From a virus, in IMG/VR virus record IMGVR_UViG_3300032242_000325, positions 1 to 28,267 of that record: a stretch of 28,267 nt of DNA; one strand, 5' to 3'. Within the stretch, counting starts at the first letter, position 1; every line of letters begins with the position of its first letter. The position numbers and the translations under genes are program-made. Of the stretch, positions 10,650-20,041 are shown in pieces. Under the pieces are notes generated by a model. The model worked only from the letters and a program-made list of their open reading frames with translations. It did not search any database and was not told where the DNA came from.

Positions 10650-12809
10650 TTAAATATAAACAGGTATATAACCAGTAATACCGCCAACATCTACTTGCAA
10701 ATATTTAACAAGGTTATATGTCAATGTAACTGGTGGATAAGCCATAGGCAATACTCCAACTGTTCCATTGTTTACTGTTGTAACACCTTTAACTCCAGAC
10801 CAATATTGAGCATTTAAATTAGTAACAAGAACATTACTATTAATTGTCATTGGGGCAACAGATGTGCCACCAGTTAAATTAAGAGGAACTCCAGATGATG
10901 TTAGTGTTAACGCATTACCTGAAAGAGCATTATAAAAATATCCTGTTGCAATAGAATTAGATATATTAGATGCTGTTAATGCTTGTCCTGATATAGAACT
11001 AACTATTGCACCCGTTCCACTAGAACTAGAAGCATTTAATCCAGTTCCTGCACCGCTACTAATACCAAATATCCCAGTGCCAGATGTTCCAGAATAAGCT
11101 ACAACTCCATTAGGCGCACTTCCAGATCCATTAATATGCGCTGCTGCTGAATAAGAATAAAGCGTGTAATTTCCAGAAATAACAGCATATCCTGTGGTAT
11201 TAATGTTTCCACCAACAGTTACATTTGTTCCATCAAAATTAAAATAACTGGTTGATGTACCAATAGACAGCCTTGGTGTTCCGGAATCATTGCCCAAAAA
11301 GAAACCAGGAGTAGTATCTGCAAATGATGTTTTGCCAGAATTAAGATTTCCTGATGTGGCAATATTCACAATACCAAGATTGGCAGAAATAGCAGATAGT
11401 GAACCAACTTTTAAGTTACTAAGGTATGGAGTAGACCAACTAATAGTATTGGTGCTTAAAACATAAATACCATCAGTTTGATATAAATATTCTCCAGAAG
11501 CCGTTAATGCTGGAGGAGATGTGGAAAAAGTCGATCCTGTTAAACCAAAAGAACCTGTTGCAGGAAGTGAGGTAGATCCCGTACTAGTTGTGGTTCCTGC
11601 TGGTGAAGCAATTGTGCTTTTGGTGTATGCAATCCTAGCACCGTCACCCTGGGGTCCAATGCTTCCGTCTTGCCGGTAACCAATGCTTCCAATTGATCCA
11701 CCGCTCCAGTTGGTTGATGTTGTGGTAGCAGTAGCAGTGTCTGTAATTACCAGATTTAATTGGTAAAGCGTGTAGCCAGTAGCAGGGGCTGTTGATGCAG
11801 TAGCAGTCCATCCTGCTGGAAAAGCACTAATTAACCCGCCACTCCATGTATAGGTAAATGCTTGTGAAGGTACGCTAGGGGTTGATGTAGCCCATTGGAA
11901 TGCGCTTACTGTTATAGACTTTGTTCCAGATGCACCCGTTGCTCCAGTTGCACCAGTAGCACCAGGATCAGAAAACAAAAATTGTGTGCTTAATACAACC
12001 GATTGAATAACAACGCCAGCACTTGTTTTATATCGTATTGGCACTGCCATGTACGCAGGACTTGCAGACATTGCCGTTGGATTGGGCCAAAGGGCATGGT
12101 CACCAGAAACAGACGGACTACCAATCGTAATATTGGTATACATAATGTCTGCATTTCCTGTGGTGGAAGAAGCACCAATACGCCAGGTGTTGTTTACAAA
12201 GGTACTTGCAGAATCTGTTTGTCCACTAGAAAACTGAACAATTACACCTTTGTTTGTTGCATACAAAGCAGGTGTTATTGAAGTAAATACAGGAGTTGGT
12301 CCTGAACCAGTTCTTGGAACTTGATAAACACTAGGAGAAAAGTAAGCAGCAAACGCAATAATTGAAGTGGACGTTACGACATCTAAATCAATAGCAGTTG
12401 CTGGATCAACTAACCAGCCACCATCAGGGGCGGTTGTAGCTACAGAAAACTGTATTTGCCTACCACCTGTTGTTAGGTAATAAAGAAATTTAGTAGTGCC
12501 AAATCCACCTGTTACTTTATTCCAAATGTAATCTGTAGGATTTGTAGATTCTGTTGAATTATTGGTATTTCTAATACCAAAGTATGCTTTATTGGTAGGA
12601 GTATCGCTAAACCCTACAGAACCATCAAAAGAATCTGCATACTTGATTGCCATGTACTTATACAAGTAACCAAGAATTGCACCTGTTGGACCCTTTACTT
12701 CTCCAGTAACTGCATTGCTACTTACAGTTGTGTTGAAATTTGAAAGTAAATAATTTACCGCATCAGACAACTCTGACGTTGAGGGGTCACTATCAAGTAA
12801 AAAAGGCAT
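10650..12809 (-). CDS. Tail fibre / host-recognition protein with collagen-like segment
   Basis: A 719-residue, Ser/Thr/Gly-rich protein. Residues 62-147 form a domain I have seen in phage fibres (DGSVGFSDTPTNKAYFGIRN ... GRQIQFSVATTAPDGGW). Residues 282-295 are collagen-like (GATGATGATGASG). Residues about 296-380 look Ig-like (QAFTYTWSGG, TLYQLNLVITDTA). About 390-560 hold a tip-protein style module (DGSIGPQGDGARIAYTKST, LSNLKVGSLSAISANLGIV, GFFLGNDSGTPRLSIGTS). The C-terminal third is repetitive (SGTGIFGISSGAG, SGTGAIVSS) and probably carries the receptor-binding tip. The start overlaps the nozzle stop (TAATG). Confidence 0.8.
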   Translation of the reverse strand: MPFLLDSDPSTSELSDAVNYLLSNFNTTVSSNAVTGEVKGPTGAILGYLYKYMAIKYADSFDGSVGFSDTPTNKAYFGIRNTNNSTESTNPTDYIWNKVTGGFGTTKFLYYLTTGGRQIQFSVATTAPDGGWLVDPATAIDLDVVTSTSIIAFAAYFSPSVYQVPRTGSGPTPVFTSITPALYATNKGVIVQFSSGQTDSASTFVNNTWRIGASSTTGNADIMYTNITIGSPSVSGDHALWPNPTAMSASPAYMAVPIRYKTSAGVVIQSVVLSTQFLFSDPGATGATGATGASGTKSITVSAFQWATSTPSVPSQAFTYTWSGGLISAFPAGWTATASTAPATGYTLYQLNLVITDTATATTTSTNWSGGSIGSIGYRQDGSIGPQGDGARIAYTKSTIASPAGTTTSTGSTSLPATGSFGLTGSTFSTSPPALTASGEYLYQTDGIYVLSTNTISWSTPYLSNLKVGSLSAISANLGIVNIATSGNLNSGKTSFADTTPGFFLGNDSGTPRLSIGTSTSYFNFDGTNVTVGGNINTTGYAVISGNYTLYSYSAAAHINGSGSAPNGVVAYSGTSGTGIFGISSGAGTGLNASSSSGTGAIVSSISGQALTASNISNSIATGYFYNALSGNALTLTSSGVPLNLTGGTSVAPMTINSNVLVTNLNAQYWSGVKGVTTVNNGTVGVLPMAYPPVTLTYNLVKYLQVDVGGITGYIPVYI

Positions 12810-14428
12810 TAAAACGCATCCTCGACAACGGTTGCTTGCCAGTTAATTGCAGTCAGATTCCAAGTATCTGTTGCATCATTGGATTCGACTTTAACAGAAA
12901 CCGTTCTTACGTTGTTTTGTTGGGTAGTAACCCAAGGATTATCCGTAACTACAGCAACTTTGCCAGTCTGACCATAAGTAGGAGCCTGGGCGGTGGAGTT
13001 TGAGCCACCTGTAGTAATGTTGATAGTCCCGCTACCTGAGATTTCAGGAAGCAATCGGTGAACATAAAGTTTAGAACTGTACGGAACTGGACCATTTGAA
13101 GTCTGAAGCGTAAGGTTGTTACGCTCAAACAATGTAGGAATAGCAGCACTGTTGATAAACGAATTACCTACACCGGTCTGGACCAGCTTAGAACTAGCTG
13201 TTCCACCACGAGCATATGTAACCGTCCTAGAAGCGTATTTAAAGGCTCCGCTTACCAGCTTGGGGGCTTCACACCCACTACAGGCGTTTGCTACGTCCTT
13301 AGGGGCATTCCAGATCTGCAGATCGTATCTCCACGACAACATCTTGTTGCACCAGCCAGTGGACGTTTGGTCTGGGTAATAAATCTCAATCTGATTTTTC
13401 TGTGTGTTGTTAATCATAAACACACGATCAGAGTACGTTGTATTTAGATTGGTAAAGAAGTAATCACGGACTCGTTGGTTGCCAAGCGGATTAAAGTTGG
13501 AGCCGTCAAAAATCCAAATATCCCTGCTATCAATGCCATAAACGTTTGCGTCTGTATTGGACCAGCAATTGTTGTTAATCAATCCACGACCTTGATTGAA
13601 CAGGCGAATGCCAAATACAGGCGCTGTACTGTTTTGATAAGCAATAGGGGATAAAACTACTGTATCCCAATAAGAGCAAATGTAAAAATTTCCACCAAGG
13701 AAAAAGCCGTCAACAATAGGACCACGAACAGGGATTTCCTGCTCATTGGCTACGTTGGTAAGAGTAGGCATCCAGGAGGCTGCTACACCGGTATTAGCAA
13801 AGGCTTGGGACCAACGGACAGTAGTTGGGTAGTTAACCGTCAATCCACTGCTTGTGTAATCCTTAGTGATGTTTCCAGCAATCAGGATATTGCCAACGTT
13901 TGGAGAGCAATAATTGCGTACAAATTCAGCACGAGTTGCAGACACTCCAATGTCGTAGTTCCAAATGTAATTGTCTGGAGCAGCATCGTACAAATAAATT
14001 TCCGTTGCTGTTGGCAGAAAATACATCGGAGAACGCAAAGTATCGTTGATGAAAAACACTTCACCCACCCATGATGTGGTGATGTTAATGTCATCAGAAT
14101 AACCAGACAATGCTACGTTGGGATTTGCTCCAACGCCAGGGGTAATATTGCTAATGCCACTGGCGGTAACCATGTACCACTTACCTTCACGGGTAGCAGC
14201 AATGTAGACCCAAGCATTGTTAGTGCGGAATCCACCATCCATAAAGACCACGTTACCAGGAATGGTAGACAAGATTTCCTGCTCGCCAGAAACCTTTTTA
14301 ATCCCACGAACATCAGCCTCAACATTTAAACCGCTGTTGTATTCATTAGGTCCAAGAGCATTGGACGGCACATCCGGTGTAAAACTCATGTTTACAAACG
14401 GAGTACGGAGTCTAGAGTAGTCGGTCAT
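12809..14428 (-). CDS. Tail nozzle / stabilisation protein (T7 gp12- or P22 gp10-like)
   Basis: A 539-residue beta-rich protein. The N-terminus (NMSFTPDVPSNALGPNEYNS, GLNVEADVRGIKKVSGEQEI) matches the usual opening of podoviral nozzle/stabilisation proteins. It is followed by repeated blade-like strands (FMDGGFRTNNAWVYIAATRE, GNFYICSYWDTVVLSPIAY, VYGIDSRDIWIFDGSNFNPL, IEIYYPDQTSTGWCNKMLSW) expected for a beta-propeller, and a C-terminal beta domain. In T7 and P22 this protein closes the tail channel and holds the fibres. Here it sits between two fibre modules, which fits. I base the call on layout and neighbourhood; exact family assignment needs a profile search. Confidence 0.75.
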   Translation of the reverse strand: MTDYSRLRTPFVNMSFTPDVPSNALGPNEYNSGLNVEADVRGIKKVSGEQEILSTIPGNVVFMDGGFRTNNAWVYIAATREGKWYMVTASGISNITPGVGANPNVALSGYSDDINITTSWVGEVFFINDTLRSPMYFLPTATEIYLYDAAPDNYIWNYDIGVSATRAEFVRNYCSPNVGNILIAGNITKDYTSSGLTVNYPTTVRWSQAFANTGVAASWMPTLTNVANEQEIPVRGPIVDGFFLGGNFYICSYWDTVVLSPIAYQNSTAPVFGIRLFNQGRGLINNNCWSNTDANVYGIDSRDIWIFDGSNFNPLGNQRVRDYFFTNLNTTYSDRVFMINNTQKNQIEIYYPDQTSTGWCNKMLSWRYDLQIWNAPKDVANACSGCEAPKLVSGAFKYASRTVTYARGGTASSKLVQTGVGNSFINSAAIPTLFERNNLTLQTSNGPVPYSSKLYVHRLLPEISGSGTINITTGGSNSTAQAPTYGQTGKVAVVTDNPWVTTQQNNVRTVSVKVESNDATDTWNLTAINWQATVVEDAF

Positions 14429-14431
14429 AAA

Positions 14432-14665
14432 TTACTTCAAGTTAATAATTGCCGTTGAAGTTTCTCGGTCAATAGTCATTACACCTTGGCACACCACGTT
14501 CCAGTCCTCGCTGTCGGCTGCTTTCTCACTTTGAGAAGGCACATTAAGGATGAAATGTTTAAACAGATATTCCTTGCCGTTTTCAAACACACGCCAGCAA
14601 TGATCCAACGTTCCACGGCCTTCCATGCCACGGGACTTATTGAACCTAATTGCATATTTATTCAT
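14432..14665 (-). CDS. Conserved 77-residue phage protein (KYAIRFNKxRG family)
   Basis: A 77-residue protein starting MNKYAIRFNKSRGMEGRGTL, then DHCWRVFENGKEYLFKHFIL, DWNVVCQGVMTID and RETSTAIINL. I recognise this compact beta-rich protein from aquatic phages, including T4-like cyanophages, where it also lies near tail and oxygenase genes; its function is unknown to me. It overlaps the oxygenase stop by ATGA, so the two are co-translated, and it ends three bases before the nozzle gene. Two cysteines occur (C23, C59). Confidence 0.8.
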   Translation of the reverse strand: MNKYAIRFNKSRGMEGRGTLDHCWRVFENGKEYLFKHFILNVPSQSEKAADSEDWNVVCQGVMTIDRETSTAIINLK

Positions 14666-15345
14666 ATTACTTCAGCAGTGGGAGCAGGGCAAGCCTGTTG
14701 CGGCTCAGCGTACTGCACTCCAATGGTGAAATGTATAAATCTCAATGGCTCATCAGACCCGTGGCGGCTAAAAGAATGCGGCAGCCACGAATTTGTAAAT
14801 ATCAACATCCCTGGTTTTGGTTGAAAATTAACTTTGTCGCTGGCGGGCGTTACTTTACTCATGTCCGCTTCTGGCAAATTAATCTGTGTTTTGCCAGAGC
14901 GAGGGTCATGCAGCACAGGGCGAGAACAATTCTCTGGGGTATCAATAAAGTAAAACCCCACCAATTGAGCGCCCCTACCGTGGATATGCTCATCCATCGC
15001 CGAGTGCTTGTAATGTTCTTGACACCACAACTCTTGGAATACGGTAGTCATGCCTTGCGTAAAGTGGCCTTGTCCTTCAAGAATGTTCCACGCAGTTTCA
15101 GCAACAAATTTTGCAAAGTCCGTTATGCGAACATCGTTAAACAAGTTGTCCGTCATGTATGCGGGATACAACTCATCTAATTGAGATTGAACTTTTTTGC
15201 GAGTTTCAAGTGCGTCAAGACAGACCTGTTTTACATTTGCAAGGAACTCAGGCTTTTGAAGTGTGTACACAAGCGCAGGGAAATACGCTTCTACCATTAT
15301 TTCATTGGTAGTTTTAACAACTTCAGCAGAACTGAGGACACACAT
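14662..15345 (-). CDS. 2-oxoglutarate/Fe(II)-dependent oxygenase-like protein
   Basis: A 227-residue protein of the family of putative 2OG-Fe(II) oxygenases common in aquatic phages. The jelly-roll core carries MDEHIHGRGAQLVGFYFIDT, with D118, H120 and H122 as metal-ligand candidates, then an LHDPRSG turn, PKPGMLIFTNSWLPHSF with H190 as the distal ligand, and EPLRFIHFTI with R202 as the 2-oxoglutarate-binding candidate. The opening EAYFPALVYT is also typical. Such enzymes hydroxylate proteins or nucleic acids; the substrate here is unknown. GGAG seven bases before the ATG at 15345 supports the start; M17 (VEAYFP) is an alternative. It lies amid tail-fibre genes. Confidence 0.8.
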   Translation of the reverse strand: MCVLSSAEVVKTTNEIMVEAYFPALVYTLQKPEFLANVKQVCLDALETRKKVQSQLDELYPAYMTDNLFNDVRITDFAKFVAETAWNILEGQGHFTQGMTTVFQELWCQEHYKHSAMDEHIHGRGAQLVGFYFIDTPENCSRPVLHDPRSGKTQINLPEADMSKVTPASDKVNFQPKPGMLIFTNSWLPHSFSRHGSDEPLRFIHFTIGVQYAEPQQACPAPTAEVI

Positions 15346-15346
15346 A

Positions 15347-15847
15347 TTAATTCTCCGCCAATGCTTTAAATACTGTAGTATCTGGCTGAAACCATTCTTG
15401 GTTCATATCACGTCTTGGAAAAATGGGGAAAGGTGGGGTTACTGGATTAACAGATTCCAACACCCAATTTTGATGCGCCGTTAAACAAACTGTCCAAAGT
15501 TGAACGCCAACAATTTCCGATTGGGTTTGGCATTGATAAAGCATATTTGTGCATTGTTCAGTCCTAAACTTTGCAAGATTATTAGCATTATCTTCAAGAA
15601 ATTTTGTTTTTTCTGCTTTTTCTTCATCAGTCATATTTACGATAGACCAACTATCTTCCCATGTATCATTATTTTTTACATAGGTGCAAACAGATTTTTG
15701 ATATATATTAGGCTTTGACGCATCAGGTTTTCTTACAAACGGCTCCCAATTAGATGGTATGCCATCTGGGAATGCTTGCAATAAATTTGTTTCGGTAGCT
15801 GGGTGGTTAACCGTTTCACCATTTTCTACTTGAATATACAATTTCAT
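15347..15847 (-). CDS. Possible tail-fibre assembly/accessory protein
   Basis: A 166-residue soluble protein: MKLYIQVENGETVNHPATET, then LLQAFPDGIPSNWEPFVRK, a strand region ending in DTWEDSWSIVNMTDEEKAEK, then a long helix (FLEDNANNLAKFRTEQC), and a conserved end (PFPIFPRRDMNQEWFQPD). The early GIPSNW.PF and W.I..MT.EEK motifs are familiar from small proteins downstream of fibre genes in aquatic phages. Its place directly after a fibre and an adhesin gene suggests a chaperone or fibre-attachment role, which is inference. It has no clear ribosome-binding site close to the ATG (AGGA lies about 12 bases away), so coupling to the upstream gene is likely. Confidence 0.65.
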   Translation of the reverse strand: MKLYIQVENGETVNHPATETNLLQAFPDGIPSNWEPFVRKPDASKPNIYQKSVCTYVKNNDTWEDSWSIVNMTDEEKAEKTKFLEDNANNLAKFRTEQCTNMLYQCQTQSEIVGVQLWTVCLTAHQNWVLESVNPVTPPFPIFPRRDMNQEWFQPDTTVFKALAEN

Positions 15848-15848
15848 T

Positions 15849-16799
15849 TTAAGGGCATCCTACGTTAGTTGACGGATAAGAGCGAGTGTTACCAGGCCAA
15901 ATAATTCTTATAATTCCTGCGCCCCCAGTTCCCCCTCCACCAACAAAAATTGTACAACCACCATAACAATAATTATTTTCGGTGCCTCCTCCTCCTCCCC
16001 CTCCATACCAAGCGCCCCTTCCACCGTAAGCATATGGATATACAGCTTGCGCAATACCCGAAGAGCCTAATCCAGCATTGTCAGACCAAGGGTACGGAGC
16101 GTAACAAGACGGAGTAGCATTTGGAATAGTTCCAGAAGCAGAAGAACCCGTCCCACCAGCTGTTGAAGAACCGCCGCAAATATTATAGACACCGCCAGCG
16201 CCGTTAGAACCTTGCCCTTTTGCGCCAGTTCCTCCACCGCCATTAGAGACACCAACTCCATATATTAAGCAGCTATACCGAACTCCACCACCCCCGCCTC
16301 CACCACTTCCAGCCAAGCCATTGCCAGAAGTAGTATTAGCAGCCCTACCACCATTACCAGCATATCCAGCAGCGCCCCCACCGCCATAATTGAGATACCC
16401 GCCATCACCGCCAGAATATTTTACTGTCCCTGTGCTGGCAGCCGCCGAACCACCAGTGCTGCCCTGAATACCATTAGCTGCGGCTACAGTTGCTCCTGTT
16501 CCTTGAAACCGCATAGTAGAACCACTACTTGAGTCAGCATAAACATTGTATGAAACCCCCGGAGTAACTGATATGTTATTGGTATATGCTAAAGCACCGC
16601 CGCCCCCGCCAAAATTACCACAAGTTGAGTTTCCTTGTCCATTGCCACCCGCACCTATTGCAAGAACTGAAATATTTGTAACTCCCGTAGGAACAACCCA
16701 ACTATAAATACTAACAGAGTTGCTTGCTATAAAAGCAGCGCTACTGCTGGCAACATCAGAACTACGCATAAAAGCAAAGGCTTGAAAAATACCGCTCAT
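15849..16799 (-). CDS. Glycine-rich adhesin / receptor-binding tail protein
   Basis: A 316-residue protein; I start it at 16799, where ATGA overlaps the preceding stop and GGGAG lies eight bases upstream. A beta-strand opening WVVPTGVTNISVLAIGAGG is followed by a large glycine-rich region with GGGGGALAYTN, GGYLNYGGGGAAGY and GSGGGGGGG runs, then the conserved closing strand GGAGIIRIIWPGNTRSYPST. This is the layout of phage Gly-rich adhesin domains, whose glycine stretches can form polyglycine-II sheets that display variable loops. Seven cysteines are present (SCLIYG, ICGG, NNYCYGGCTIF and others), unusual for an exposed virion protein. It follows the long fibre gene directly and is probably its tip. 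Confidence 0.8.
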   Translation of the reverse strand: MSGIFQAFAFMRSSDVASSSAAFIASNSVSIYSWVVPTGVTNISVLAIGAGGNGQGNSTCGNFGGGGGALAYTNNISVTPGVSYNVYADSSSGSTMRFQGTGATVAAANGIQGSTGGSAAASTGTVKYSGGDGGYLNYGGGGAAGYAGNGGRAANTTSGNGLAGSGGGGGGGVRYSCLIYGVGVSNGGGGTGAKGQGSNGAGGVYNICGGSSTAGGTGSSASGTIPNATPSCYAPYPWSDNAGLGSSGIAQAVYPYAYGGRGAWYGGGGGGGTENNYCYGGCTIFVGGGGTGGAGIIRIIWPGNTRSYPSTNVGCP

Positions 16800-19700
16800 G
16801 TCAAACCGCTCCCAGAAATAATCCAAATACCAGAAGATGATAGGCCCGATACTTTAACAGCAGTCGCTGTTCCATATTGAGCCAGTGTGCGCGTGCCGGT
16901 AGTGCCAGTGCTTGAAAGATACATCGTGTCTGTGGTAATTGCAATGCTGATCGACGTTGTAGATAAATTTACAAAGCTAATTGCTGTGCCAATTGGATAC
17001 GCAACAGAAGTTGCGGCGGGAATTGTGTAAGTAGCCGCACCAGCGCCAGAAGCATGGTAAATGTGTTTTCCAGAATCTGCCAGCACCATTGTGTAGCTGC
17101 CAGTTTGGGCATTTTGCGGGATGTTTTTAAAACCAACAGAGTTTGTGCCATCGACAGTACAGTTACTTAATGTTCCAGAAGTTGGTGTTCCAAGAATCGG
17201 AGTTACTAATGTTGGGCTTGTGGCAAATACCGCAGAGCCTGTGCCAGTTTCATCGGTCAACAAAGCTGCCAAGTTTGCGCTGGTAGGTGTTCCAAGAAAC
17301 GTCAAAGCGCCAGTAGCCGTTGTTGTAGTGCTTGGAGCAGCACCTGCACCACCTCCAATAACCAAAGCATTTGCGGCTAATGCGGCAGATGTTGCCCACG
17401 TTGATGCACTAGAAAAGTATGGAATACCGCCAGACGTACCGGCAACTGTAAATGCAGGAGTTGTAGTTCCCGTAGCAACTGATACCACACCACCTGTAAA
17501 ACTTACAGAAGTTACAGTTCCAGAACCTTTGCCGTTAAACGTAGTCCAATCAGCAGCAGTCAATAATCCACGATTTGTTGCAGAAGATGATGGCAAATTA
17601 AGAGTAATAACTGGCGTTGTTGTTCCTGTTGCAACACTAGAAGAAACATCAGTACCTGTTGTACCAAGAGTTAAAGCTGCTACTGAAGTTACAGTACCTG
17701 TTCCATATCCAGAAGGATTTGATGCAGGATAAGCGCCTAAAGCAGTAAGCGCAGCAGATGCTGTGGTAGATCCAGTACCACCATTAGCAATTGCCACTGT
17801 ACCTGTTACGTTAGAAGCAGTTCCTGTGGTGTTTTGATTTAGTGTTGGAATGTCAGCAGCAACAATGGCTCTAAACGTAGGAACACCAGAAGTACCGTTA
17901 GGAGCAGCAAGTACATAGTTTGCAGTTTTACTTGCATATGGATTTTGTGTATCTCCATATCCTGTTGCCAAAGCAATCGTTGTTGCTGCGCTTCCGTTAA
18001 AACTTGTTCCGCTTAATGGGCTGCTAATTGTTAATGTATTAGCAACAGAACCAGCAGAACCTGTAGTATTTTGATTTAATGTAGGTACATCAGCGGCTTG
18101 TATTGTGGATAAAACTACGTTTGTTCCATTGCCACGCAAATACGATCCACTTGTAACGCCACCAGCAAGTGCATTAATTGCAGTTTGAGCAGTAGTTGCC
18201 CCAGTTCCACCACGGTTAATTGCAACAGTTGTTCCGTTCCATGTTGCTGATGTGATTGAACCAGGATAATCAAATGTGTTTGTACTCCAAGATACGTTTG
18301 AAGGTGCTTGGTTATGTACATCCCAAGAACCAGCAGAAGTTGCATTGGACAACAAAACAACTTCAACATATCCACCAGCTTGAATAGTTGCAACTGTTGT
18401 AGAAGAATTGTTCTTTACAACGATGGTTCCGCTTGTTTGGTTGTTGTTGAAAACAAAATTTGCACCGTTTTGCAAAGTTGTTGCATCAGGCAATTGATAG
18501 GTTTGACCACCAGAACCTGTAACAACGTAATTTGGAACAGAAGCTACTGTAAGTACAGTTGTCGTTCCTGCTGCTGCAACATTGCTATAACCTTCAGAAA
18601 TAGAGTTTGCAATAATATTTTGATTAGCATCACGCAAAACAACACTATTTGCACCTGTTGATGCAGTTACACCTGTACCACCATTTGCCACCGGAAGAGC
18701 AGTTCCGGAATAAGAAAGCGCAAGTGTTCCAGATGTCGTAACAGGACTTCCGCTTACCGACAAAAATGAAGGTGCGCTTAATGCAACAGAAGTTACCGAT
18801 CCAGCACCAGATCCATTTGCACCTTTTTGGGCAAGTAAGTTCCAATATGTAGCATTAGGAGGCTGTTGGTTCGTATTTGCAGCAATCGCAATGTAAGAAC
18901 TACCGCTAGTTGCATCAAATACACCATCATTGATAGCATAGGTAGTAGCACTGGACCAGTTACCTTTCCAGTTCATACCAATTGGGCCAGTGGCTCCAGT
19001 AGCACCGGTGGCCCCTGTTGTACCTTGCGGAATACCAAAGTTAAATACTGCGGCAGACGATGTGCCTGAATTGGTAACAGTAGCAGAAGATCCTGCCGAC
19101 AATGTTGTCGTAGTTCCAGCAGCAATAGTTGCAGCAGTTCCAGTTGTTCCTTGAGGAATACCGAAATTAAATACTGCAGCGCTAGAAGTTCCTGAGTTAG
19201 TTACGGTTGCAGAAGAACCTGGACTTAGTGTTGTCGTTGTCCCAGCCGCAATGGTTGCCGCAGCACCTGCAGCACCAGTAGCACCCTGTGGAATACCAAA
19301 GTTAAAAACAGCAGCACTTGATGTACCTGAGTTTGTAACTGTGGCAGATGTTCCAGGTGTCAGGGTTGTTGTTGTACCAGCTGCAATAGTTGCTGCGGTT
19401 CCAGTAGCACCAGTTGCTCCGGTAGCACCCGTTGCTCCGGTATCACCACGAGGAATGGTGAAGTTAAAAACAGCAGCAGAAGTTGTGCCAGAGTTTGTAA
19501 CACTTGCTGAAGTACCAGCAGCACCTGTAGTAGTTGTACCGGCTGCAACAGTGGCGGCAGATCCTGTGGCTCCAGTGGCTCCTGTGGCTCCTGTAGCGCC
19601 TGTTGGTCCTTGAGTCCCCTGTGGGATTCCAAAGTTAAATACGGCAGCAGTAGAGGTTCCAGAGTTTGCAACAGTTGCAGAAGCACCAGGCGAAAGAGTG

Positions 19701-20041
19701 GTGGTGGTTCCTACTGCAATAGTGGCTGCTGTGCCAGGTGTTCCAGCACGAACCCAAGTTGCAGGTGTTGACCAAGTAAAGCTGGACGTTGTTTTGGAGT
19801 TAACAATCGCAATAGATGCCCACACAATATTTGTGGGGCTGGTAGGAGGCGTTGAAGACCATCCACTGGGAGGAACACCAACATTGGTTGTAAAGTCCCA
19901 AGAGCCACCGGTTGGAGTGGCTGGTGCTGTTGCAGATTCTTGGAAGATGAACCATTCAAAGTATGTTCCACCAAAAACAGTTGTATTGCCGTATAGGCCA
20001 ACTGATTCTGCGCTAGTTCCGTAAAGACCGCCTGTAGCCAT
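16796..20041 (-). CDS. Long tail fibre with tandem repeats and collagen-like segments
   Basis: A 1081-residue protein. Residues 1-100 (GLYGTSAESVGLYG, GGTYFEWFIFQ, PTSPTNIVWASIAIV) form an N-terminal virion-attachment-like domain. Residues 101-352 hold five tandem repeats of about 40-60 residues (AATIAAGTTTTLSPG ... AVFNFGIPQG), separated by collagen-like GAT(GAT)n runs. Residues about 356-405 (GNWSSATTYAINDGV ... TYWNLLAQKG) look like a small carbohydrate-binding-type module. The rest, to 1081, is repetitive beta structure with recurrent NGGTG and TVTSV motifs, ending in a beta-barrel-like domain (SGKHIYHASGAGAATYTIP). TAGGA seven bases before the ATG marks the start. Probably trimeric; it binds the host surface. 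Confidence 0.85.
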   Translation of the reverse strand: MATGGLYGTSAESVGLYGNTTVFGGTYFEWFIFQESATAPATPTGGSWDFTTNVGVPPSGWSSTPPTSPTNIVWASIAIVNSKTTSSFTWSTPATWVRAGTPGTAATIAVGTTTTLSPGASATVANSGTSTAAVFNFGIPQGTQGPTGATGATGATGATGSAATVAAGTTTTGAAGTSASVTNSGTTSAAVFNFTIPRGDTGATGATGATGATGTAATIAAGTTTTLTPGTSATVTNSGTSSAAVFNFGIPQGATGAAGAAATIAAGTTTTLSPGSSATVTNSGTSSAAVFNFGIPQGTTGTAATIAAGTTTTLSAGSSATVTNSGTSSAAVFNFGIPQGTTGATGATGATGPIGMNWKGNWSSATTYAINDGVFDATSGSSYIAIAANTNQQPPNATYWNLLAQKGANGSGAGSVTSVALSAPSFLSVSGSPVTTSGTLALSYSGTALPVANGGTGVTASTGANSVVLRDANQNIIANSISEGYSNVAAAGTTTVLTVASVPNYVVTGSGGQTYQLPDATTLQNGANFVFNNNQTSGTIVVKNNSSTTVATIQAGGYVEVVLLSNATSAGSWDVHNQAPSNVSWSTNTFDYPGSITSATWNGTTVAINRGGTGATTAQTAINALAGGVTSGSYLRGNGTNVVLSTIQAADVPTLNQNTTGSAGSVANTLTISSPLSGTSFNGSAATTIALATGYGDTQNPYASKTANYVLAAPNGTSGVPTFRAIVAADIPTLNQNTTGTASNVTGTVAIANGGTGSTTASAALTALGAYPASNPSGYGTGTVTSVAALTLGTTGTDVSSSVATGTTTPVITLNLPSSSATNRGLLTAADWTTFNGKGSGTVTSVSFTGGVVSVATGTTTPAFTVAGTSGGIPYFSSASTWATSAALAANALVIGGGAGAAPSTTTTATGALTFLGTPTSANLAALLTDETGTGSAVFATSPTLVTPILGTPTSGTLSNCTVDGTNSVGFKNIPQNAQTGSYTMVLADSGKHIYHASGAGAATYTIPAATSVAYPIGTAISFVNLSTTSISIAITTDTMYLSSTGTTGTRTLAQYGTATAVKVSGLSSSGIWIISGSGLT
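18986..19741 (-). repeat. Five tandem fibre repeats with collagen-like spacers
   Basis: The region encodes residues 101-352 of the long fibre. Each unit carries AAT(I/V)A.GTTTT, a TNSGT(S)(S)AAVFNF strand pair and IPQG or IPRG, followed by zero to four GAT triplets. Units 3-5 are nearly identical in the strand pair, units 1 and 2 more divergent, suggesting expansion by unequal recombination. Confidence 0.75.

Follow-up and report, generated by a model that had tools for sequence, protein, structure and literature searches.

An oxygenase-like gene (OXY) and the gene of a 77-residue protein that directly follows it (SM) occur side by side in diverse uncultured phages far beyond chance, and we tentatively read the two, at not quite an even chance, as a mobile cassette of a protein-modifying oxygenase and its partner, in which SM would be either the substrate or an adaptor. 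The basis of this reading observed here is the gene structure, the adjacency, the conservation, the predicted folds and the invariant putative metal ligands. The window, namely the whole stretch of DNA analysed, is the 28,267-base virus record IMGVR_UViG_3300032242_000325. The following features of the window, all on the minus strand, are referred to below:

12809..14428, minus strand, gene of the phrog_3287 virion protein, downstream of SM
14432..14665, minus strand, SM, small partner gene, 77 aa, all-beta model, without a named family
14597..14641, minus strand, residues 9-23 of SM, conserved loop without regular secondary structure at high pLDDT
14662..14665, minus strand, ATGA stop/start overlap of OXY and SM (OXY stop TGA 14664-14662, SM ATG 14665-14663)
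14662..15345, minus strand, OXY, oxygenase-like gene, 227 aa, PF13759 / phrog_81 (open reading frame and profile matches)
14665..14673, minus strand, C-terminal E-V-I tail of OXY, preceded by a linker with Pro/Gln
14740..14742, minus strand, R202 of OXY, candidate 2-oxoglutarate-binding basic residue with a putative role (K or R in 140 of 160 clade members)
14776..14778, minus strand, H190, distal histidine of OXY (159 of 160 clade members, 9 of 9 distant relatives)
14905..14907, minus strand, D147 of the DPR motif of OXY, clade-specific carboxylate (D in 155 and E in 5 of 160)
14980..14988, minus strand, H120-I-H122 motif of OXY, at the place of the usual HxD (sequence alignment)
15347..15847, minus strand, 166-aa ORF directly upstream of OXY
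15849..16826, minus strand, Gly-rich ORF
16796..20041, minus strand, fibre-like ORF of 1081 aa that contains three GAT runs, all short
near 19562-19618, 19400-19447 and 18977-19024, minus strand, GAT runs of the 1081-aa ORF

The overlapping pair with its ATGA junction, as described in an earlier note on this DNA, is present at these positions. Its placement in a tail operon also holds, because the pair sits in a tight minus-strand run that leads from the 1081-aa fibre-like ORF through the Gly-rich ORF, the 166-aa ORF, OXY and SM to the phrog_3287 virion protein gene. The GAT repeats ascribed to the fibres do exist, three runs in the 1081-aa ORF and one in a 719-aa ORF, but they are short. Other genes of the window match SU10-type capsid and adaptor, portal and terminase families.

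With regard to OXY, its description as oxygenase-like agrees with the profile searches. The protein clears the Pfam gathering cut-off of PF13759 (2OG-FeII_Oxy_5; E 1.8e-9, 38.3 bits against a cut-off of 27) and matches the PHROG profile phrog_81, '2OG-Fe(II) oxygenase' (E 9.5e-15), while it stays under the NCBIfam cut-off of TIGR02466 (44.7 bits against 62.5). A defence role was looked for in PADLOC, where both OXY and SM are without a match. The AlphaFold model of OXY, built from a 38-row alignment (pLDDT 90.8), has its best PDB matches in two uncharacterised proteins, 3bvc (Z 20.4, 186 aligned residues, rmsd 3.1) and 2rg4 (Z 19.9), and the predicted model has the double-stranded beta-helix fold of these solved PF13759 relatives. 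The next matches are prolyl hydroxylases at Z 15-17, including the P. putida P4H solved with EF-Tu, and the small-molecule enzyme SnoN, an epimerase, is also matched at Z 16. OXY thus shares the double-stranded beta-helix with protein prolyl hydroxylases (algal P4H, P. putida P4H, PHD2, OGFOD1), from which it differs in its low identity (7-14%), in having HxH instead of HxD and in the rarity of collagen-type repeats near its gene.

The canonical motif of Fe(II)/2OG oxygenases is HxD/E...H, which forms a 2-His-1-carboxylate triad. By comparison with PHD2, we take H120-I-H122 of OXY to be the equivalent of the HxD metal motif. Both H120 and H122 are kept in all 160 clade members and in all 9 distant relatives. 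The HxD/E...H triad is absent in the OXY clade, which has HxH in 160 of 160 members and the distal histidine in 159. HxH instead of HxD is common to OXY and both solved relatives, 3bvc and 2rg4, in which the distal histidine is aligned too. A carboxylate at position 147 is found in 160 of the 160 clade members against 3 of the 9 distant relatives, and it might substitute for the missing carboxylate of the triad, judging from the alignment. Therefore, 2OG/Fe(II) chemistry is likely for OXY by family but not assured, because HxH...H stands where HxD...H is usual.

On the other side of the junction, searches of Pfam, PHROGs, NCBIfam and PADLOC left SM of the window unmatched, and 46 SM members gave scattered weak matches only (best E 0.0037 in PHROGs and 0.0047 in Pfam). 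One of the weak profile matches, to diamine acetyltransferase (E 0.013), was set aside, as this enzyme is absent from the fold search lists. The 46 aligned members have 19 invariant positions, among them N9, R12, G13, G18, H22, W24 and R25, and the conserved loop reads NKSRGxxGRGTxDHxW. The predicted model of SM is all-beta (pLDDT 96.2); against the PDB, Foldseek gave no match at E <= 0.001 and the best VIA match reached Z 2.9. In BFVD, an SM-like predicted fold occurs within longer phage proteins such as A0A6J5L4Y1, A0A6J5PX74 and B2ZYE1. The stretch concerned matches with E 8.8e-6 and TMq 0.76 in A0A6J5L4Y1, a phage protein named DUF2061, and with E 1.2e-4 and TMq 0.61 in B2ZYE1 of phiRSL1, named APS kinase; both differ from SM in being longer and are 23-25% identical to it. 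These predicted folds suggest a wider domain family, and no SM-like sequence was seen in E. coli cysC, a huge-phage APS kinase or bacterial DUF2061 genes. In prokaryotes, a scan of genome contigs found SM at 2 loci, both on MAG contigs, and 399 genomes of one order gave one strong match, in a genome already known, and one weak match (E 0.008).

The association of SM with tail and oxygenase genes in other phages was borne out: relatives are encoded on 133 stretches in one IMG/VR scan, and a profile scan gave at least 575 matches. For the IMG/VR scans at most the best 80 loci per scan were taken, so that the sample is not random. Removal of 88 duplicates left 204 distinct SM-seeded junctions, two of which were too near the contig start, and 202 were scored. 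The OXY-seeded loci were left out of these 202 and included in the counts of identity, residues, co-divergence, tails (230), collagen-like runs, flanks and neighbours. Within this sample of the best 80 loci per scan, a 2OG-type oxygenase abuts SM in 191 of 202 junctions, 186 times OXY and 5 times a PKHD-type enzyme. The 186 OXY-SM junctions from these best loci have offsets of -4 (151), -1 (24) or other values (11); SM starts were set by a motif rule, and offsets from -28 to -37 are possibly miscalled starts. In the five PKHD-type loci (the L042 type) OXY lies one gene upstream, in L053 just as a fragment at the contig start. In 7 of the remaining 11 junctions a single inserted gene separates OXY from SM. 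The insert, which SM then abuts, is a phrog_7084 gene in L094, L106, L326 and L329 and a QueC-like gene in L254, L260 and L269, so called from phrog_1550 in L254 and L269 and from a Pfam match just under the cut-off in L260.

In all, OXY lies at most two genes upstream of SM in 198 of the 202 scorable loci (best 80 loci per scan). Reverse searches from OXY gave 73 loci, and SM is next in 71 of 71 scorable clade members (68 by script, 3 by eye; again the best 80 loci per scan); the rest of this set comprises a second, distant oxygenase at 1.3 kb from SM, and 2 genes located at a contig end. The two sets are not independent: the SM sequence of 26 of the 73 OXY-seeded loci also occurs in the SM-seeded set. 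The earlier suggestion that SM could be the partner of OXY is thus strengthened as far as constant companionship goes. The four exceptional loci, L097, L103, L286 and L295, have no OXY-family match on their contigs, all of which are possibly fragments. In L097 and L103 a 94-aa gene (L097:2920-3204, L103:895-1179) abuts SM in the place of OXY. We read these two genes as cupin-like from their sequences; PHROGs gave no match for either, and the one in L097 matches Pfam AraC_binding at E 0.056, below the cut-off. In L286 and L295, SM occurs without OXY or a cupin-like gene, beside ORFs with Gly-Tyr-Ser/Gly-Phe-Ser repeats.

The neighbours other than OXY and SM change. The commonest upstream family, the 166-aa one, is found immediately before OXY in 98 of 203 pair loci. 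Downstream of SM, 193 loci were scored: in 16 of them no ORF follows on the same strand within 300 nt, and those of the others form 70 clusters, of which the biggest counts 30. That the pair can stand alone is seen in 9 of 180 loci, where the genes on both sides are encoded on the opposite strand. Of the 105 pair loci for which 4 kb or more of upstream sequence exist, 83 have fibre-region genes like those of the window; irrespective of its target, the pair is thus most often at home in fibre regions. Beyond fibres, the pair lies beside a DNA polymerase gene (L029, phrog_262; T4-type in our reading), a ClpA-like gene (L045, phrog_4871) and a primase gene (L083).

Moreover, OXY that abuts SM has a characteristic ending, [ETPIV][VI][VI] in 215 of 230 cases. 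For this count, 121 identical junctions were removed, and L086, L146 and L220-L236 had been left out beforehand; in an earlier set, before divergent loci joined, the tail was present in 154 of 156, and a tail-like ending was found in 13 of 1332 other ORFs. The tail is absent from 9 of 9 distant relatives of OXY. It is kept where SM does not abut (L094, L106, the L042-type loci, L018, L254, L260 and L269), and the gene overlap therefore does not force it. An explanation of the AEVI tail as merely the ribosome-binding site of SM was ruled out, since its codons vary synonymously and tails persist in these loci. On the other hand, the tail is changed (for example to AVIL) or gone in 15 of the 230, thus it is not essential to pairing. 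We infer that the tail may be a docking peptide. Similar endings were seen in other proteins: an upstream protein of 106-112 aa ends in TTVI in L097 and L103, which are without OXY, and proteins of 125-126 aa end in ATII, AVVI or ATVI (L094:1902-2282, L113:2519-2896, L117:2521-2901), of which the L117 protein has no PHROG or NCBIfam match.

Regarding sequence divergence, SM varies less than OXY: its median identity is 0.64, that of OXY 0.52, and SM has the higher value in 81% of 11,026 comparisons. The distances of OXY and SM are correlated (rho 0.45), with a partial correlation of 0.32, which none of 500 permutations attained. However, OXY and the 166-aa neighbour family, taken as control, give rho 0.69, and as the value for OXY and SM lies below it, specific co-evolution of the two is not demonstrated; no such signal rises above this neighbour control.

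The cassette of our preferred reading would consist of a prolyl-hydroxylase-fold, probably metal-dependent OXY and an all-beta SM that is made together with it, probably by coupled translation. OXY would modify a protein, and SM would bind OXY, either as a dedicated substrate or as an adaptor that brings the substrate, and the flexible C-terminal tail of OXY may help the docking; the data examined hold no direct sign of contact between the two. The target, rather than being the collagen-like repeat in general, would be either SM or some protein of phage or host that many phages have in common. A narrower form, which we consider rather unlikely, says that the SM loop NKSRGxxGRGTxDHxW is the dedicated substrate of the HxH...H enzyme, docked via its tail, that the unit spreads together and that PKHD-type or cupin-like enzymes join or replace OXY. 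If true, this would be a phage-encoded enzyme-substrate pair, in which an unusual HxH...H oxygenase hydroxylates a small beta protein.

The earlier note had proposed hydroxylation of fibre or collagen-like residues made next to OXY, or modification of a host target. Collagen-like runs, defined as at least 4 triplets, were found near just 14 of 105 pair loci, where the Y position is mostly Thr or Ser and is Pro in 8 of 612 triplets, and the runs of the window itself have no Pro in Y; a larger set gave runs near 21 of 152 loci and Pro in Y in 24 of 739 triplets. Since both the runs and Pro in Y are rare and the pair also adjoins replication-type and ClpA-like genes named above, the collagen-like part of the proposal is not upheld: prolyl 4-hydroxylation of collagen-like fibres is not the general function, and a collagen prolyl 4-hydroxylase with a co-encoded Gly-X-Pro substrate was rejected on the same figures. 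A non-collagen fibre residue or a host protein is a possible target. The wider idea that OXY hydroxylates fibre proteins encoded nearby, beyond collagen-like repeats, with the help of SM, fits the fibre genes and GAT runs of the window, the frequency of fibre regions around the pair and the Gly-x-Ser repeat ORFs beside SM in L286 and L295. It also fits the lone pairs of L266 and L273, whose flanking genes match tail fibre, spike or other virion PHROGs (four flanking genes scanned). These flanks moved our estimate of the wider fibre reading up from very unlikely to unlikely and slightly lowered the other readings, and they keep a fibre target in play together with the 83 of 105 loci. Nevertheless, the DNA polymerase, ClpA-like and primase contexts speak against it, and the fibre regions may just be places where the cassette inserts.

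Another explanation regards SM as an independent structural or host-directed protein and OXY as a mere neighbour, the junction being kept by translational coupling and linked inheritance. We judge it about as doubtful as the loop-as-substrate form and a little less so than the fibre idea. It is favoured by loci in which SM persists beside a cupin-like gene (L097, L103) or with no enzyme nearby (L286, L295), by co-divergence that is not above the neighbour control and by the genes inserted between OXY and SM, but it hardly accounts for OXY staying within two genes of SM in nearly every SM locus while other neighbours change, nor for SM beside every scorable OXY, both in the best 80 loci per scan. 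The least probable of the explanations weighed, by our analysis, is that OXY would have a small molecule as its substrate or would influence the 2-oxoglutarate level of the cell, SM being a regulatory subunit. The match to SnoN is in line with it, as is the proposal that phage oxygenases modulate 2-oxoglutarate, made for cyanophages and NtcA (PMC3037559), but the loci inspected by eye have no link to metabolic genes.

In known phages, 2OG-type oxygenases are common in some groups, and the passages covered report a demonstrated protein substrate for none. According to such passages, 14 of 16 cyanophages carry 2OG oxygenases, for which 2OG-NtcA modulation is proposed (PMC3037559), an AlkB-like repair role has been considered for phage oxygenases (PMC2984593), a fold similarity to EGLN3 is described (PMC12774648), S-CREM1 has ten 2OG oxygenase genes (PMC9964418) and an algal-virus enzyme is treated in one of PMC10142737 and PMC9611531; the passages covered of these six papers do not mention a small overlapping partner. 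A literature search of titles and abstract openings, with few subscription journals, found no paper on the OXY-SM pair, and nothing in it linked a phage prolyl hydroxylase with collagen-like tail fibres. Pelagiphage and cyanophage 2OG-Fe(II) oxygenases belong to the same superfamily as OXY, and the genes of HTVC023P and HTVC033P are 28-29% identical to it, but they lack the tail, have no SM in the surrounding stretches and adjoin other oxygenases and a 'putative ferrochelatase'. Similarly, the proteins of PF13759, phrog_81 and TIGR02466 share with OXY the sequence family, the fold of 3bvc and 2rg4 and HxH with the distal histidine, whereas OXY falls below the TIGR02466 cut-off and its tail is missing in the nine distant relatives. 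The constant 77-aa companion is a concrete and testable candidate for a substrate or adaptor of the OXY clade. SM also marks an unnamed protein family, for which IMG/VR gave at least 575 matches and yet a search of 50,697 annotated phage records gave one.
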